The notes under the pieces are model-generated. The model had not been told where the DNA came from. It saw only the letters and a list, made by a program, of their open reading frames with translations, and did not search any database. Shown here piece by piece: positions 3,338 to 24,100 of a DNA stretch of 64,000 bases. The stretch is from Candidatus Saccharimonadota bacterium (lineage in GTDB: Bacteria; Patescibacteriota; Saccharimonadia; Saccharimonadales; Saccharimonadaceae). The stretch covers positions 62,001 to 126,000 of the forward strand of contig JAFWKF010000004.1 in the NCBI GenBank assembly GCA_017533605.1, given 5' to 3'. How positions within the stretch are numbered: the first letter of the stretch is position 1; every line of letters starts with the position of its first letter. The position numbers were made by a program, and so were the translations under genes.

Positions 3338-4327
3338 ATGCAACGCCTCCTCATTATTTACAATCCCCATTCATCTCGTTATGCCGATGTCAGAGCCGAA
3401 GTCCTTGACAAGGTTACAAATTTAAAAGGCTTTATTATTGGTAAATACGAAGTTGAAAAAACTGACGTAGACCAAAACGCCAAAAAACTCTCTAAAATCT
3501 TAAAAGACGGTGATTTAGTTTTGTCTGTCGGCGGCGACGCCACTGGTGTAATTGCCACAAACGCTATTCTAGACTCAGGAAAAGATGCTACTTTAGCAGT
3601 TCTGCCCTACGGCAATTTCAACGACCTCTCCCGCACCCTCGGCACTAGTAGTCTAGAGGATATTGTTACATGGGCGGGTGACGGCTCTGGAAGGGGCCCC
3701 CAAAATGCTTTGCAAAGCAAAGATTTTGGGGAAGGAGAAGAGCCGGCAGGACCCGCCCAGAATTATTATCCTCTAGAGATTCTTATTGACGATATCCACT
3801 TCCGCTACGCCACCTGCTACACCACCATCGGCATGACGGCCGAAGCCGTCCATTTATACGATCAGCCTAAAATGCGCCAAAAACTCAAAAAATCCATTGG
3901 CCGCAAATTCAGCTCATATACTCAACTTGCTAGTTGGTATTTTAAAAACCGTCACAAGAACCAGTTTTTGCCAGATTTTAAATTAAATGGTAAACTTCAA
4001 CCCAAAAATACTTCCGATTATGCCGCAGTAAATGGTCGCTACATGGCCCGCGTGATGAAGGGCGGGGAATACTTCAAGAGTCCCACTACTTTCCGTAGTG
4101 AAACCGACCGCCTCACGAATTTTTGGCGTCTATTTAAACTCATGATGAAAAGTATTTTTAAAACCATTCCGGGTTCTAGCACTAAGGGCGACACACTAGA
4201 ATTTTTAAGCCCTGCCACAGTTGAATTGCAGGCCGAAGGCGAATATAAAACCTTCAGCAATATTAATAAAATTGTAATAAGGAAGAGCAAAAAATGCCTG
4301 AAAGTGATAACGAAATTAGAAAAATAA
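3338..4327 (+). CDS. Diacylglycerol/lipid kinase-like protein with palindrome-derived insert
   Basis: Resembles the DAGK catalytic/NAD-kinase-like fold: RLLIIYNPHSSRY at the N-terminus and SVGGDATG at the nucleotide-binding loop, where the family usually has GGDGT, then LPYGNFNDLSRTLG in place of the usual GTGNDFAR region. The altered glycines make its activity uncertain. Residues about 111-140 (nucleotides 3671-3759) are an in-frame copy of a palindromic repeat found twice more in intergenic DNA in this window. It sits in the linker between the two subdomains. Length 329 aa, slightly long for the family because of the insert. It overlaps the next gene by 34 bp. Confidence 0.7.
   Translation: MQRLLIIYNPHSSRYADVRAEVLDKVTNLKGFIIGKYEVEKTDVDQNAKKLSKILKDGDLVLSVGGDATGVIATNAILDSGKDATLAVLPYGNFNDLSRTLGTSSLEDIVTWAGDGSGRGPQNALQSKDFGEGEEPAGPAQNYYPLEILIDDIHFRYATCYTTIGMTAEAVHLYDQPKMRQKLKKSIGRKFSSYTQLASWYFKNRHKNQFLPDFKLNGKLQPKNTSDYAAVNGRYMARVMKGGEYFKSPTTFRSETDRLTNFWRLFKLMMKSIFKTIPGSSTKGDTLEFLSPATVELQAEGEYKTFSNINKIVIRKSKKCLKVITKLEK
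3671..3759. repeat. Palindromic repeat family A, copy 1 (inside a coding region)
   Basis: Outer arms TGGGCGGGT and ACCCGCCCA, then a perfectly paired 7-nt stem CGGCTCT/AGAGCCG, then the inner stem CCCCAAAAT/ATTTTGGGG enclosing a small hairpin (GCTTTGCAAAGC). The 5' side has GA and the 3' side GCAGG between outer and middle stems. The same architecture recurs at 14718-14803 and 16170-16247. This copy is translated in frame as part of the lipid-kinase-like protein. Confidence 0.85.
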
Positions 4328-5100
4328 CCGAATACATGAGAGCTCACTGGCCTTCTCATGTTAAACCCGAATGGCAAGTAAAACAATCATCCTATCCAAA
4401 GATTTTAGAAAAAGTATTGGAAGATATTACACCAGCCGCCACTAAGAATCATCATTTGATTCGTATCGCCGGCATTTCAGGTTCCGGCAAAACCACTCAA
4501 ATCTTACCCGCCGTTGAAGCCTATTCTCGTAAAAATAACTTTGAACCAATTTTAATGGCTGCCCGCCGTTTTGTAGAATACCATCCCCACTATCAAGAAA
4601 TCAAAGAGTTTTACGGCGAAGAAAATCTCCGCAAAAACACTGATGAATTTTGTACAATTATGTTGTTTTTGTGTTTATCAGAACTATTAAGAGGTGGATA
4701 CGATGTAGTACTTGATGTCACTTTGCTTGATCCCGAAATGGAAGGCATTTTATTAAAAATGCTTAAAGCCGGCGAATACGAAACCCTATTTCTGATGATT
4801 GCTTGCTCGCCTACCGTGACTGAAAAATATTTAAGCGGCCGCGCATGGCGCCACAGCAAAGAAACCGAGTTAGAATTTATTCGTGCTACTTCCAAGGCCT
4901 TAGATTTCTACGCCGAGAATGCTCCTAACATCCGCATTGTGATTTGGAGCGTTTATGACAAACCGCCAGTTTATGATGGTCCTATCAAAGATTGTTTAGC
5001 CATTTTTGATGATTATTCAAATCGCGACCAACTGCCAAAAGCTGACGACGATGCCCGCCGTGATGCTAAAATAGAATATCTTACAACTGATTTAGATTAA
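4294..5100 (+). CDS. P-loop kinase, zeta-toxin-like
   Basis: 268 aa with a Walker A motif GISGSGKTT near residue 60, followed by AARRFVEYHPHY, which resembles the zeta-toxin/UDP-GlcNAc kinase segment after the P-loop, and a candidate Walker B region GYDVVLDVTLLD near 130. R-rich lid (SGRAWRHSK) near 190. Probable small-molecule or nucleotide kinase; no antitoxin-like partner is visible, so a toxin role is not supported. It begins 34 bp inside the preceding gene with a GGAAGAG ribosome site, so translation is probably coupled. Its 3' end overlaps the convergent APH-family gene by 20 bp. Confidence 0.6.
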   Translation: MPESDNEIRKITEYMRAHWPSHVKPEWQVKQSSYPKILEKVLEDITPAATKNHHLIRIAGISGSGKTTQILPAVEAYSRKNNFEPILMAARRFVEYHPHYQEIKEFYGEENLRKNTDEFCTIMLFLCLSELLRGGYDVVLDVTLLDPEMEGILLKMLKAGEYETLFLMIACSPTVTEKYLSGRAWRHSKETELEFIRATSKALDFYAENAPNIRIVIWSVYDKPPVYDGPIKDCLAIFDDYSNRDQLPKADDDARRDAKIEYLTTDLD

Positions 5101-5893: not shown

Positions 5894-5907
5894 ATACATA
5901 TTATACC

Positions 5908-6010
5908 ATAGGGAGGCAAGATTTTTAATCTGTCCTGCGGGACATGAAGACTTGGCCAGAGCGGCCTGGAGCGTGCCCGAAGGGCACGTTTAAAAATCTT
6001 GCCTCCCTAT
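5908..6010. repeat. 103-bp inverted repeat with three internal hairpins between divergent genes
   Basis: Perfect 21-bp arms at 5908-5928 and 5990-6010 (outer end ATAGGGAGGC / GCCTCCCTAT). The enclosed 61 nt holds three small hairpins: GTCC-TGCG-GGAC, GGCC-AGAGC-GGCC and GTGCCC-GAA-GGGCAC. The whole would fold as a long stem capped by a three-branched head. It fills the space between two divergent leaderless promoters (APH-family gene leftward, P-loop kinase rightward). It contains no gene. Confidence 0.85.
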
Positions 6011-6026
6011 GTGCTATAATACTATT

Positions 6027-7031: not shown

Positions 7032-9437
7032 ATGAAAAGACTAGTTATTATTGACGGCAAATCCGTATTTTATCGTGGCTACTATGCCATGGGTGCCCTC
7101 AGTTTATCTGACGGCACTCCTACTGGCGGTGTGTATGGTTTTGCTGCCATCGCCATGGAAATTGTTAAAAAACTAGATCCAACCAAAGTTGTAGTAGCTT
7201 GGGATTCTAAAACTTCCACTTCAAAACGCCGTGCCATTTTTCCAGAATACAAAGCTGGTCGTGTTAAGCCGGGTGAAGATTTTTATTCACAAATTCCTTT
7301 ATTAAAAGAATTGGTCCAAGATTTAGGTTGGGATTTTGTAGAAATTGATGATTACGAAGCCGATGACATTATTGGCACTCTGAGTCTTCAGGCAGATGAA
7401 GCCGGCGATTGGGAAACTTACATTATTTCTTCCGATCTAGACATGCTTCAAATTGTAGATGAAAACACTTTCATGTGGCGCATTCTAAAAGGCTTTTCTA
7501 ATATTGAAAAAATAGATGTTGCCGAGTTTGAAGAAAAATATGGTATCAAAAAATCCCAGTTCCTAGATTTAAAATCCTTAAAAGGTGATTCGTCAGACAA
7601 TATTCCAGGTGTTCCCGGTATCGGTGAAAAAACCGCCGTTAAATTATTAAATGAATATGGCGATTTAGACAATATATATAATAATATAGACAAAATCTCA
7701 GGTGCGATTAAAACTAAACTCATTGCCGGCAAAGACTCTGCTTATATGTCGCGCGATCTCGCTAAAATCATGACCGATGCTCCGGTAAAACTAAGCGACC
7801 TCCCCGACTTCCACTTTAACCGTGACTCTTGTCTCGCCGGCCTCAAAAAACTCGAATTCAACTCTTTGATCCGCAAAGTATCTGTTAGCGAATTCAAAAA
7901 TAGTGCTGCTCGAGGGCTTCCGGAGGTTACGACCGAGGATGAGGGCGCGAGCCCCGTAACGACGGGCGCGAGCGACCCGTCCCGAGAGAGCACTATTTTG
8001 AATTCGCCCCCAGACATAATTATCGATTGGGACATCAAATCCTACATGCACCACGACCCCAAAATCGCTGAGGAGATTTTATCCGGCAAACCTTTTTGGG
8101 ACCTTGGCCAAGCCGAATTTTTAATTAATCCTTTAGAACGCAAACAATCCGATCTTTACGATCCTATGGATTTTCGTTACGCTTATAAAACCCAACGCAG
8201 CCAACTCGCTGAGCTCCCCAAGCTCCTTAATGTCCTCGAATCTTTTGACCTGCCACTCATTCCAGTTTTATACAAAATGGAAGAAAAGGGCATGTTAATT
8301 GACCGCGAATACTTCAAAAAACTACACCAAGAATATTCCGCCGAAATTAAAAAACTCGAAAAAGAAATCTGGGATCTAGCGGGTAGGGAATTTAACATTA
8401 ATTCGCCTATTCAACTTTCTGAAATTTTATTTACTGATTTAAATCTTCCTACTAAAGGCATTAAAAAGACTACTCGCGGCTATTCTACCGGCGCTAAAGA
8501 ACTAGAAAAACTTCAAGATCTTCATCCAATTATCCCCAAACTCACCGAATACCGCGAAGTAGCAAAGTTACTCAGTACCTATATTATTCCTATGCCAGAT
8601 CTTGCTGACGAAAACGACCGCATCCATACTACATTTACGCAAAACGTTACCGCCACCGGTCGCCTTAGTTCTAAAGATCCCAATCTTCAAAACATTCCAG
8701 TTCGGACCGACGAAGGCAAACGCATTCGCACGGGCTTCATCGCGCCAGAAGGCAAAGATTTAGTTTCAGCAGACTATTCTCAATTTGAGCTTCGCCTCGC
8801 CGCCATTCTCGCCGGCGATCAAAATCTCATTGACGATTTTAACAAAGGCATCGATATTCATACCAAAACCGCTTCCGAAGCTTTCAAGGTCCCATTTGAT
8901 AAGGTCACTAAAGCCCAGCGCCGCGCCGCTAAGGTTATTAACTTTGGCATTCTTTATGGCATGAGCGTGAGGGGATTATCTGAAGCCGCCAAAATGCCAT
9001 TTTACGAAGCCAAAGATTTTATTGACAATTATTTCAAACTTCGCGCGCCTATCAAAAAATACCTAGACAAAATTCTGGAGCAAGCCAGGGAAAAAGGCGC
9101 TGTAGAAACCTACTATGGTCGCCGTCGCCCTACTCCGGATGTAAAATCCACTAATTTTGTCATTCGCCAAGCTGCTGAACGCGCTGCAGAGAATATGCCA
9201 ATTCAAGGCACCGAAGCCGACCTCATGAAACGCGCCATGATAAAAGTAGATCAAAAACTTCCTGACGGTGCCACACTAATTATGCAAGTTCACGATTCGC
9301 TAATTGTTGAATGTGATAAATCCCTTGCCGACCAAGTCGCGTCAATCCTAAAATCTGAAATGGAGTCAGTTGCTCCAGAACTCAAAATAAAATTGGCCGT
9401 TGAAATCTCAATCGGCCAAAATTGGGGCGAATTATAA
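7032..9437 (+). CDS. polA: DNA polymerase I (5'-3' exonuclease + polymerase, no proofreading motif)
   Basis: 801 aa. The 5'-3' exonuclease (about 1-285) shows VVAWDSKTSTSKRRAIFPEYK, DYEADDIIGTL and GDSSDNIPGVPGIGEKTA. The middle proofreading domain is reduced and lacks visible exonuclease acidic motifs. The polymerase shows motif A DYSQFELRLAAI, motif B RRAAKVINFGILYG and motif C MQVHDSLIVEC. It is shorter than the 870-930 aa typical of full-length versions because of the reduced middle. Residues about 286-324 are encoded by a palindrome (7890-8005) and look unlike the rest: rich in Gly/Ser/Thr/Glu and low in hydrophobics. It acts in Okazaki fragment processing and repair. Confidence 0.97.
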   Translation: MKRLVIIDGKSVFYRGYYAMGALSLSDGTPTGGVYGFAAIAMEIVKKLDPTKVVVAWDSKTSTSKRRAIFPEYKAGRVKPGEDFYSQIPLLKELVQDLGWDFVEIDDYEADDIIGTLSLQADEAGDWETYIISSDLDMLQIVDENTFMWRILKGFSNIEKIDVAEFEEKYGIKKSQFLDLKSLKGDSSDNIPGVPGIGEKTAVKLLNEYGDLDNIYNNIDKISGAIKTKLIAGKDSAYMSRDLAKIMTDAPVKLSDLPDFHFNRDSCLAGLKKLEFNSLIRKVSVSEFKNSAARGLPEVTTEDEGASPVTTGASDPSRESTILNSPPDIIIDWDIKSYMHHDPKIAEEILSGKPFWDLGQAEFLINPLERKQSDLYDPMDFRYAYKTQRSQLAELPKLLNVLESFDLPLIPVLYKMEEKGMLIDREYFKKLHQEYSAEIKKLEKEIWDLAGREFNINSPIQLSEILFTDLNLPTKGIKKTTRGYSTGAKELEKLQDLHPIIPKLTEYREVAKLLSTYIIPMPDLADENDRIHTTFTQNVTATGRLSSKDPNLQNIPVRTDEGKRIRTGFIAPEGKDLVSADYSQFELRLAAILAGDQNLIDDFNKGIDIHTKTASEAFKVPFDKVTKAQRRAAKVINFGILYGMSVRGLSEAAKMPFYEAKDFIDNYFKLRAPIKKYLDKILEQAREKGAVETYYGRRRPTPDVKSTNFVIRQAAERAAENMPIQGTEADLMKRAMIKVDQKLPDGATLIMQVHDSLIVECDKSLADQVASILKSEMESVAPELKIKLAVEISIGQNWGEL
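7890..8005. repeat. In-frame palindromic insert in polA
   Basis: Arms GAATTCAAAAATAGTGCT (from 7890) and AGCACTATTTTGAATTC (to 8005) pair almost perfectly (one-base bulge). An inner pair GTTACG/CGTAAC and a very GC-rich core (GGGCGCGAG repeated) follow. The insert keeps the reading frame and encodes the junction between the exonuclease and the polymerase regions. Confidence 0.8.
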
Positions 9438-14307: not shown

Positions 14308-14384
14308 GGAATCGTAGCTCAGTTGGTTAGAGCGCTGCCCTGTCACGGCAGAGGTCGCGAGTTCGAGTCTCGTCGGTTCCGCCA
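14308..14384 (+). tRNA. tRNA-Asp (anticodon GTC)
   Basis: Acceptor GGAATCG pairs with CGGTTCC; D-stem GCTC/GAGC; anticodon stem CTGCC/GGCAG with loop CTGTCAC, giving GTC; T-loop TTCGAGT; CCA is encoded. TATAAT (14292-14297) lies 10 nt before the gene. A second copy of its 3' end follows 31 nt downstream. Confidence 0.97.
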
Positions 14385-14420
14385 TTTTTTTGTGCGGTCG
14401 CCAGCGACTCGTACTTCGTA

Positions 14421-14447
14421 TCGAGTCTCGTCGGTTCCGCCATTTTT
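14421..14447 (+). repeat. 27-bp duplicate of the tRNA-Asp 3' end
   Basis: An exact copy of 14363-14389 (T-arm, acceptor 3' strand, CCA and the T run after it) repeated 58 bp downstream. The sequence between (about 31 nt) contains a short hairpin-like GGTCGCCAGCGACTCG. This could be the footprint of integration or excision at the tRNA, or a terminator copy. Confidence 0.85.
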
Positions 14448-14717: not shown

Positions 14718-14803
14718 TGGGCGGGTGACGCGAATAGGGGGACCCCCAAAATGTTTTGCGTTAGCAAAAATTTTGGGGGATAATTCGCGGCAGGACCCGC
14801 CCA
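14718..14803. repeat. Palindromic repeat family A, copy 2 (rpsU-adk intergenic)
   Basis: Outer arms TGGGCGGGT/ACCCGCCCA, middle stem CGCGAAT/ATTCGCG, inner stem CCCCCAAAAT/ATTTTGGGGG around a short loop (GTTTTGCGTTAGCAAAA). GA on the 5' side and GCAGG on the 3' side, as in copy 1. It ends about 9 bp before the extended -10 of adk. Confidence 0.9.
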
Positions 14804-15429: not shown

Positions 15430-16171
15430 CGAAAAAATCGCCGCCATGCGTGAAGGCGGCAAGATTTTAGGCAATTTACTCCGAGATTTAAAAGACTATG
15501 TTAAACCGGGTATGACCGGCAAAGAAATAGACGCTTGGGTGCGCAAAGAAATCGTAGCCCGCGGCGCCGGCGTAGCCTACGACATGCTAGAAGAAAGATT
15601 TCCAGGCGCAATTTGTATTTCTATCAACGATCAATTAGTTCATGGTGCTCCTTCAGATGAAGTCCTAGTAGCAGGCGACAAAGTATCCTTTGATCTTGTC
15701 ATTTATTACAAAAAATACTTCACCGACTCTGCCTTTACTATGCTAGTAGGTGGCACCGGTTCGCCCGCCGTTAAAAAAATGATTTCCGTCACCGAATCTG
15801 CCTTGTGGGAGGGGATTGAGCAGGTGAAACCCGGCGCTCATATTGGTGACATCGGCCACGCTGTAGAAAAGGTTCTACGCCGCGGTCATCTTGGCGTAAT
15901 AGAAAATTATATCGGTCACGGCATCGGCGAAAAAATGCACCAAGCCCCCGAGGTTCCCAACTATGGCAAAAAAGGCCACGGCTACGAACTAAAAGAAGGC
16001 GACACTATCTGTATAGAGCCTATGTCCTCACTTGGCAAACCCGCTAACTACGTAGACAAAGAAGACAACTGGAGCGTCAAAATGAAAGACGGTTCCATCG
16101 GCTGCCACTGCGAACATACCATCCTCGTTACTAAAGACGGTTATGAAGTCCTAACTTTGCCAGACGATTAA
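15419..16171 (+). CDS. map: Type I methionine aminopeptidase
   Basis: 250 aa. It removes the initiator Met from new proteins. The five metal ligands are visible in order: Asp in VSFDLVIYY, Asp in YFTDSAFT, His in YIGHGIGEKMHQAPEVPNYG, Glu in ICIEPMSS and Glu in HCEHTILV. It starts 11 bp inside adk. The stop codon abuts the third family A palindrome. Confidence 0.96.
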   Translation: MVNNEKIAAMREGGKILGNLLRDLKDYVKPGMTGKEIDAWVRKEIVARGAGVAYDMLEERFPGAICISINDQLVHGAPSDEVLVAGDKVSFDLVIYYKKYFTDSAFTMLVGGTGSPAVKKMISVTESALWEGIEQVKPGAHIGDIGHAVEKVLRRGHLGVIENYIGHGIGEKMHQAPEVPNYGKKGHGYELKEGDTICIEPMSSLGKPANYVDKEDNWSVKMKDGSIGCHCEHTILVTKDGYEVLTLPDD

Positions 16172-16247
16172 GCGGATGGCAGCTTTGGAGGATGTCCCCA
16201 AAATTGTCGTCAATTTTGGGGGAGGAAAAGCTGGCGGGACCCGCTCA
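16170..16247. repeat. Palindromic repeat family A, copy 3 (map-ftsA intergenic)
   Basis: A more diverged copy: outer arms AAGCGGAT/ACCCGCTC, middle stem CAGCTTT/AAAGCTG (perfect), inner stem CCCCAAAATT/AATTTTGGGG with loop GTCGTC. It fills almost all of the map-ftsA gap, ending 6 bp before the TGTGGTATAAT of ftsA. Confidence 0.85.
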
Positions 16248-21124: not shown

Positions 21125-24100
21125 ATGAAATATAGAGCGGGAGAACGGCGAAAAGCCAACGAATATGAAAAGGCCATCAATGATTGGTGGAAAAATAATC
21201 AAACATTTGAAAAATCGGTAGAGAATCGTCCGGCCGATAAGTCCTATGTTTTTTATGATGGTCCTCCGTTTATTACCGGCAATCCTCATCACGGTACTCT
21301 CCTCTCCTCTATTGTCAAAGATGCTGTCCCACGCTACTGGACCATGAATGGTTACCGGGTAGAACGTCGTTGGGGCTGGGACTGCCACGGCCTTCCCGCC
21401 GAAAACTTTGTAGAAAAACAGCTTGGCATCACGGACCGCCGCGAAATCGGCACCAAATGGTCTTTAGAAGATTACATTATTAAAGCCCGCGAATCCATGG
21501 TTGCCAATTCTGAAACCTGGCGCTCTACTATAGACCGCGTCGGTCGTTGGGTAGATTTTGATAACGCCTACCGCACCATGAATAAAGATTTCATGGAATC
21601 TGTCTGGTGGGCTTTCAAGCAACTCTATGACGCCGGCAAAATCTACGAAGGCCGCAAAGTTTTAATGTACGACACTAAATTTGCTACTCCTGTTTCTAAG
21701 GCCGAAGTCACCATGGACAATGACGCCTACCAAGTCGTCACCGACCCATCGGCGTATGTCAAGTTTAAGCTTCAGGCGGGATCTGTCGGACCTTCTTCTG
21801 AAGGGCCTAAGACTCGGGCGAGCGCCCCGGAGCGGCCCGAAGAAGAACGGTCCGAAGCTCCTGTATATCTTTTAGCTTGGACCACTACACCTTGGACTCT
21901 ACCTGCCAACATGGCTCTTGCTATCAACCCAGACTTAGATTACGGTATTTATAATATAGATGGTGAAAAGCTTATCCTCGCAGTTGCTCGCGCCAAAGTC
22001 TTATTTGAAGGCGTGAAACCTATAGAAGCTTTTAAGGGCAAAGCCTTAGTTGGCAAAAAATACGAACCCATCATTGAAGTTGCCGACAGCCTCTATGATT
22101 TAGGCCTTCGTGGCGACCAAGGCACTGTGGCTCGCAAAGACACCTATACTGTCCTCCCAGGCGATTTCGTTTCCGCCGAAGACGGTACCGGCATCGTTCA
22201 TATCGCTCCCGCCTACGGCGAAGACGACTACGCCCTAAGCCAAAACTATGAAATTGACTTCGTGGATTGTCTTGACGAAAACGGTTATTATCTACCAGAA
22301 ATGGCCGAGAAGCTCCACGCTCTTGGCGTCCGCGACACCGACGAAAACGGTATTCAAGTTTGGGCCGGCAACAAATTTATTGCCAAATGTCTAGAAGAAA
22401 AGGGCATTATCTATAAAATTGATTACATTCAGCACGAATATCCCTTTAACCCTCGTTCCAAAGAGCGCATCATTTACCGTGCCTTCCCATCTTGGTTCTT
22501 TGATATAGACGGCCAAAAACAGCTGATGCTGGCAGAGAACGAAAATATCAACTGGTTCCCCGCCTATCTAAAACACGGCCGCTTCGCTAAAAACATTGAA
22601 GCCGCCCCAGATTGGAACCTCTCTCGCGATCGTTTCTGGGCCACCGCCATGCCAGTTTGGAAGGGCGACAAAGGCTCCGTCAAAGTCGTCGGCTCCTACG
22701 CCGAACTCAAAGAACTCTCCGGCAAGGAATTAGATGATTACCACCGCCCTTGGGTTGATGAAATAGAATTTGATATTGATGGTGAACATTTCACTCGCAT
22801 TGAGAAAGTCCTAGACTGCTGGTTTGAATCCGGCTCTATGCCTTTTGCCCAGCTCCACTATCCTTTTGAAAACAAGGAAAAATTTGAAACCAACTACCCC
22901 GCCGATTTCATCGTAGAATATGTCGGTCAGGTCCGCGCTTGGTTTTATTATGTTCACGCCGTAAATACCGCCTTAGCTTCTATCGGCGCCTTTGGCGAAA
23001 AGGCCAAAAACGGCCCTAAAAACGCCTATAAAAACGTCATCACTACCGGCACTCTCGCCGGCAATGATGGCCGCAAGATGAGCAAATCCCTCGGCAACTT
23101 CACCGATCCTAACGAACTCATGGATCAATTTTCTGCCGACGCTCTCCGTTTCCTACTTCTTAGTTCCCCTGTTCTATCTGGCGAAGATTTCGCTCTTCTA
23201 GATAAAGATGTTTCTGACATTAACCGCAAACTCGCTATGATTTGGAACGTTTATGATTTCTTCACCACTTATGCCGAGGTAGAAGGCATTGACTCTGCAG
23301 ATTTTGATGAACTTATTCGTATCACAAATCCTCTAGACCGATGGATTACCTTGCGGGTTTACCAGCTTCGTGACGAAATTACTACCGGCATGGAAGAATA
23401 TAACATTCCAAAAGCCCTCCAAGGTGTCTTGCCATTTATTGATGACCTCTCTAACTGGTATGTCCGCCGTTCCCGCCGCCGTTTCAGCAAAAACGACAAC
23501 GCCACCGATAAAAAAGCCGCTTTTGATACACTTTATTCTGTCCTTATAATGACCGCTACCCTTCTAGCGCCATTTACGCCATTTCTTTCCGAGGAACTCT
23601 ACCAAAAACTCACCGGTAAAAACGAATCTGTTCATTTGTTAGATTGGCCCGGCCAACTCAAACCGTCATCCACCGAAACCGTCCTTGATGATATGGCCCG
23701 CACTCGCCAGATTATCACCGATGCTCTGGCTCTCCGTATGCAAAAATCCGAAACCGAGGATCAAATCAAAATTCGCCAGCCTTTGTCTAGCCTCACCTAC
23801 CCAGGTGAAAAATTAGACGATTATTACGAACAAATTATTGCCGACGAAGTCAATGTTAAAACCGTTCAAAACGGCGATGTGCTTAGCCTAGATAAAACTC
23901 TCACCTCAGAGCTAATAAGAGAGGGAACCGCTCGCGAAATCATCCGCGCCGTCCAATCCGCCCGCAAACATGCCGGCTTGCGTCAAGATGACGAGATCAA
24001 ACTCTCTCTCACTTGCGATTTGCCAGAAGGGTACGAAGATCTCATCAAATCCGAGGTCGGTGCTACTGAGATTACTAAAAACGGTAACTTCGCTCACGAC

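Follow-up and report, generated by a model that had tools for sequence, protein, structure and literature searches.

How does a short palindrome that elsewhere lies between genes come to lie, in frame, within the gene for an enzyme, and what has it become there? Mobile DNA inside of protein-coding genes has been known previously mainly from Rickettsia and Wolbachia. Here the question is raised by a Candidatus Saccharimonadota genome assembly of 593 kb, of which one stretch of 64,000 nucleotides, i.e., ‘the window’ as that term is used below, was analysed. A first-pass annotation of the window had proposed that a palindrome, intergenic elsewhere, adds about 30 residues rich in Gly, Pro, and Glu to a lipid-kinase-like protein, between its two subdomains. 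Open reading frame (ORF) spans as given here are mechanical rather than annotated genes, gene names lacking confirmation by search were assigned by eye, and the genomes compared are MAG-based.

The gene is the following:

3338–4327, forward strand: ORF for a DAGK_cat (YegS/DgkB-like) lipid kinase, 329 aa (PF00781, E 4.1e-12; top PDB folds)

Those top folds include DgkB (2qvl, 2qv7), YegS, and SphK1, which together with the PF00781 match bears out identification of the gene as lipid-kinase-like. Relatives of this kinase are from rumen and gut Candidatus Saccharibacteria, including Nanosyncoccus alces. Immediately 3' of the gene, at 4294–5100 of the window, is one for a zeta-toxin-like kinase (PF06414).

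Within the kinase gene is an imperfect palindrome of 89 nt. As RNA it folds at −51.2 kcal/mol (z −6.1), and as DNA, together with its flanks, it folds with a z of −8.3. Its parts, along with two arms belonging to the host gene, can be described as follows:

3671–3759, forward strand: in-frame palindromic element of family 1, spanning 30 codons (cmsearch 98.2 bits; BLASTN; RNA fold)
3671–3679, forward strand: left outer arm, pairing with 3751–3759 (RNA fold; covarying outer pairs)
3751–3759, forward strand: right outer arm (RNA fold)
3680–3681, forward strand: left side of the conserved asymmetric internal loop, inside GGGTGAC (comparison of copies)
3746–3750, forward strand: right side of that internal loop, GCAGG inside GGCAGGACCC (RNA fold; comparison of copies)
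3682–3688, forward strand: left side of the middle stem, pairing with 3739–3745 (RNA fold; compensated sequence variation between copies)
3698–3731, forward strand: apical stem-loop, CCCCCAAAAT...ATTTTGGGG (RNA fold)
3652–3662, forward strand: host-gene arm TCTAGAGGATA, codons LED, complementary to 3767–3777 (DNA fold with flanks)
3767–3777, forward strand: host-gene partner arm TATCCTCTAGA, codons YPLE (DNA fold with flanks)

Across the internal loop, A/G exchanges with G/A between copies (GGCAGG/GACAGG). The two host-gene arms lengthen the hairpin past the ends of the element. They were considered as possible parts of the element and rejected as such, since these are host codons and similar pairing is seen in element-free orthologues (L087, L092). 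The peptide specified by the element is WAGDGSGRGPQNALQSKDFGEGEEPAGPAQ, 30 residues in all, which matches the length and composition first claimed, with Ala to be added to Gly, Pro, and Glu as abundant residues. An example of a peptide derived from this insert is DFGEGEEPAGPAQ, with translation inferred rather than observed, i.e., there is neither transcript nor protein evidence. The 98.2-bit score is partly circular as the model used includes this same copy.

The term family 1 is used here to describe the repeat of which this segment is a copy, that is, an imperfect palindrome of about 85 nt (mostly 74–101 nt) of which 13 are recovered from this genome by a covariance model based on 11 copies. 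Three of these are found in the window, i.e., that starting at 3671 along with two more:

14718–14803, forward strand: family-1 copy, intergenic (92.6 bits)
16169–16247, forward strand: family-1 copy, intergenic, beginning where the preceding gene has its stop codon (66 bits)

With these spacer copies set beside the kinase ORF, what is in frame in one gene is, as had been proposed, intergenic elsewhere. The three best non-self BLASTN matches to the kinase copy within the same genome are 88–94% identical to it. One of these is located within an ORF of 802 aa, one close to the start of an ORF that by eye is methyltransferase-like, and one in a spacer. Looking beyond this genome, the covariance model has matches in 18 of 60 relatives, for more than 100 copies, and within the order matches are seen in 39 of 295 genomes, mostly of the same genus. 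Presence nevertheless is patchy, with family 1 missing from many genomes of that genus. Copies share a common plan, in which the outer arms and a middle stem vary, the GGGTGAC/GGCAGGACCC motif at the internal loop is conserved, and a C5:G5 hairpin forms the apex, and 12 of 23 stem pairs display two-sided compensatory change. For 55 of 96 copies, versus 7.5 expected, the nearest element is one from the same genome, and therefore copies are inferred to multiply within genomes. Two side observations may be added. At one locus (G000:C2:56725-56860; L170) what follows a family-1 copy is part of that copy's own 5' end, inverted (CCGTCACCCGTCT). Elsewhere in the window, at 14363–14447, the 27 nt (TCGAGTCTCGTCGGTTCCGCCATTTTT) that make up the 3' end of a tRNA gene recur unchanged 58 nt downstream, as might resemble an attachment site or instead an insertion duplication.

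Family-1 copies are found in frame well beyond the kinase. Of 99 copies that were extracted from across the genus, 57 lie wholly inside of an ORF of at least 140 aa and do so in frame, 43 forward and 14 reverse, with the remainder mostly found between ORFs, many in spacers just behind stop codons. The element sequence has 4.2 of its six frames open, and about 23% of random insertions into coding DNA therefore should be in frame. A single frame, frame 0 forward (WAGD...AGPA), accounts for 33 of the 57 in-frame copies. Only two copies are read in that frame in which GGGTGAC would supply a TGA, and both carry TGG instead.

Nor is family 1 alone, as at least three other palindromic families are present in these genomes. 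Three such inserts or elements are found in the window:

7875–8009, forward strand: in-frame insert in polA, residues 282–326, from a palindromic family other than family 1 (inverted arms; recurrence of the segment)
21779–21862, forward strand: ileS insert, residues 219–246, missing from several relatives (comparison of relatives)
5907–6011, no strand assigned: element of another family, intergenic, with 22-nt perfect arms and a three-hairpin core (inverted arms; recurrence in relatives)

The polA and ileS inserts had been grouped with the kinase palindrome; they are real and in frame, but belong to other families rather than to family 1. That in polA possesses 19-nt inverted arms (7881–7899 and 7996–8014), and the peptide segment it encodes is found again, in four genomes (G006, G007, G003, G010), within ORFs that are unrelated. 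The core of the 5907–6011 element recurs in frame with different, locus-specific arms, in DAGK (G007, L113) and in RluB (L280, L282). One IleS (G006:C8:3447-6797, 1121 aa) has at least three in-frame palindromic inserts, one of them resembling the polA insert and two being family-1 copies which exactly occupy gaps between matched IleS segments. RluB repeats the pattern of the kinase, being occupied by family 1 in G000 and by other inserts in G018, G009, G041, and G003, while empty in other relatives. The kinase, RluB, IleS, and PolA segments all are absent from orthologues. In one RluB (L286, G044) all that is left is the 3' end of family 1, GGCAGGACCCG, in frame and encoding part of AGPVEK. 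This ‘scar’ is evidence of partial element loss.

What of the kinase linker itself? Most related genomes with the kinase gene align with it to residue ~111 and resume at ~141. In a wider set of 80 kinase orthologues an ordinary short linker was confirmed in 45, and large in-frame palindromic inserts are found in about 19, these representing at least four families, with some nested and one inverted. Eight of the 19 match family 1 forward (L116 only weakly, E 0.048) and one matches it in reverse (L163). Another three are other elements nested in family-1 arms, i.e., other-family elements found in the apex of those arms (L113, L151, L153), and seven are of other families, both of these groups being as read by eye. 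In L151 there seemingly is a third insert inside of the second. Most orthologues thus lack the 30-residue segment, and some instead possess unrelated inserts, as agrees with the insertion initially proposed. That proposal would have been undermined by distant orthologues possessing the same segment, conserved, at the same site, but the same-site family-1 copies of other species are only 43–54% identical to that of the kinase here. Copies from unrelated loci of the same genome, by contrast, are 87–89% identical to it. Furthermore, the sister of this gene in the kinase tree (L088; support 90/77) lacks the element, and the family-1 state changes eight times on that tree, at least five of those changes being forced by well-supported branches. 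For these reasons the kinase copy most likely arrived independently of same-site copies in other species, as inferred from these sequence comparisons, with the caveat that counts of changes on a tree cannot separate gain from loss.

AlphaFold2, as run on a 50-sequence alignment of the kinase, returned a mean pLDDT of 87.5, with residues 115–137 the only segment falling below 50. Those residues sit between a helix (106–113) and a strand (140–143). The insert is thereby predicted to be disordered and to form a loop where the nucleotide-binding subdomain meets the beta-rich one, i.e., in that position, between two subdomains, where it had been placed from sequence alone, and with the loop-like character that a structure prediction had been anticipated to reveal.

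Must such a segment be mobile, however? Linker length does vary even among palindrome-free orthologues, and one might view the insert as no more than ordinary length variation of a low-constraint linker, due to slippage and random indels, immobile and only by chance self-complementary. That would not account for the near identity of copies found in spacers and at loci that are unrelated, for one covariance model recovering more than 100 copies from 18 genomes, or for a conserved GGGTGAC/GGCAGGACCC motif in combination with compensatory stems, and indeed dispersed copies already refute this reading, which retains next to no credence. The same covariation along with the conserved asymmetric internal loop, as well as the many spacer copies just behind stop codons, could suggest instead a functional structured RNA or a protein-binding DNA motif, selected for regulation, with in-frame copies arising as by-products. 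Such a motif nonetheless would not be expected to have entered so many ORFs of unrelated kind, in either orientation and in several frames, nor to be so patchily distributed across a genus, and Rfam provides no match at gathering or relaxed threshold, the sole relaxed hit, to a miRNA model, having been rejected as due to chance. A regulatory motif thus seems quite unlikely. A different possibility is that of adaptive domestication, that is, that the insert has been kept for a new kinase function. The strong preference for the WAGD...AGPA frame despite four to five frames mostly being open would be consistent with that, though this bias may exist because a soluble Gly/Ala/Pro peptide is preferred, with no function needed. 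As the linker accepts unrelated families in both orientations, is empty in sister species, and has no confident structure predicted for its insert, domestication is viewed as very improbable.

Preferred instead, and held with high confidence, is that 3671–3759 represents one copy of a mobile, non-autonomous palindromic element that is present as a tolerated in-frame loop, mobility being inferred from the existence of its copies and with this confidence not extending to the route by which it moved. Family 1 would, that is, spread within Saccharibacteria genomes, in either orientation and without target-site duplication, into both spacers and genes. Copies that break genes presumably are purged, while those that keep frame and are found in flexible loops would survive and be translated. 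The kinase copy may thus have landed in the inter-subdomain linker, there giving rise to a disordered loop of 30 residues which, by inference, most likely is neutral for the enzyme.

As to movement, family 1 resembles prokaryotic MITEs in being short and multi-copy, in possessing inverted arms, and in being both intergenic and genic (PMC10969869), and such elements classically are moved by the DDE or Y1 transposase of a full-length relative. There is no target-site duplication, however, with shared flank words of 2.63 versus 2.66 for controls, and the outer arm sequence differs by locus. Mobilisation by a RAYT/Y1 transposase was rejected, PF01797 being found in none of 24 genomes of the genus in a search that detected its controls, though DDE families were outside of that search. 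Nor did 23 genomes, as searched by exact pattern only, reveal any longer element sharing the left end TGGRCGGGTGACG. Apart from one in incomplete G008, which is unresolved, every such left end found in the genus is that of an ordinary, short copy. A classical MITE consequently is considered unlikely. Different evidence comes from flanking sequences. The 30 nt found outside of coding copies are complementary beyond chance (−12.0, as compared with −9.2 in far controls and −9.6 in shuffled ones, p ~1e-5), with controls being same-locus and shuffled as between-locus swaps overstate complementarity through differences in GC. Flank pairing also is stronger at filled than at empty kinase sites of similar GC (p 4e-5, uncorrected for phylogeny). 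Insertion specifically at the tips of existing hairpins, whether in host DNA or of other elements, is a target preference that would explain this, as it would explain nesting in the apex of older elements (L113, L151, L153) and the finding of the same host hairpin, without an element, in L087 and L092. Averaged over the 45 empty kinases, however, the insertion site is not unusually hairpin-prone (rank 111–131 of ~270), the RluB site ranks high for hairpins in only one of three settings, and stem growth following insertion, by template switching, likewise would yield complementary flanks. With no support from the empty kinases and mixed results from RluB, complementarity was dropped as a simple proof of hairpin-tip targeting and its cause therefore is left open, i.e., it may reflect either preferred targets or later stem growth, with tip targeting a possibility but not what is expected. 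Exact boundaries and target, moreover, are not fixed as no very close pair of filled and empty sites was available.

Within the preferred reading of a mobile element, a tentative route is that a folded single-stranded or cruciform hairpin is moved to hairpin-prone sites by a trans-acting host or replication function, one which recognises the conserved internal loop. A broader and similarly doubtful extrapolation is that several families in rumen and gut Saccharibacteria undergo hairpin-targeted movement without a transposase of known kind, inserting at tips, nesting, leaving short scars, and repeatedly rebuilding linkers of essential proteins, such that coding palindromes would be a main source of protein length variation in these minimal genomes. 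The material available for pursuing such ideas, i.e., dozens of Saccharibacteria genomes in which sites may be occupied or empty, together with nested copies, a scar, and hot spots that several families have entered, makes directly testable the long-open question of how coding palindromes move and are tolerated. It also is a warning that ‘insertions’ in CPR proteins often are mobile DNA rather than lineage-specific domains.

How, then, do these elements compare with those already known? No report of such elements in CPR bacteria or Saccharibacteria was found in a searched library that was short of most subscription journals, and to that extent the suggestion that these are undescribed in CPR stands. 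REP/BIME sequences with their RAYT (Y1) transposases, as well as ERIC and other bacterial MITEs, are, like family 1, dispersed short palindromes. Unlike those, family 1 is without a Y1 gene in its genus and without target-site duplication, and is found in frame in genes for more than half of its copies rather than being extragenic. In nematomorph mitochondria, long inverted repeats lie inside of protein genes (PMC6649704), but both arms there encode conserved protein, whereas family 1 is a dispersed repeat that is missing from orthologues. Yeast GC clusters (GC42), the double-hairpin elements of Allomyces, and sponge RHEs are short mitochondrial hairpins of unsettled mobility, mostly intergenic though sometimes found in genes without frameshift, with RHEs inserting in tandem to give double hairpins and GC42 occasionally leaving footprints (PMC4478555, PMC2800124). 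On this comparison they would be the next nearest system after that of Rickettsia, differing in that their hosts are organelles and in that insertion into protein genes is exceptional there, versus more than half of family-1 copies here.

Nearest are the Rickettsia palindromic elements (RPEs), of ~80–150 bp and several families, which occur in frame in unrelated as well as essential genes and also are intergenic, which can be of different families at orthologous sites, and which are inserted in tolerated regions of the proteins of reduced-genome, host-dependent bacteria (PMC10969869, PMC3767692). Of these properties, insertion into a tolerated, flexible region is borne out here, from pLDDT, on the basis of this one kinase. 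Like RPEs, family 1 is a dispersed palindrome, one of several families, in frame without breaking frame, with empty orthologues and with different families found at one site. Unlike RPEs, it is from a different phylum and has the core GGGTGAC...GGCAGGACCC, the motif of R. japonica RPE-4, -6, and -7 being ATGAC (PMC3767692), and it is found in genes both ways round, with nested apices, a documented scar, and complementary host flanks. The parallel with Rickettsia that was originally drawn thus holds, as a matter of comparison, for behaviour only, including the occupation of one orthologous site by different families, no RPE sequences having been compared. That tiny episymbionts from a distant phylum possess a counterpart implies that elements of this kind are found repeatedly in genomes that are reduced and host-dependent.
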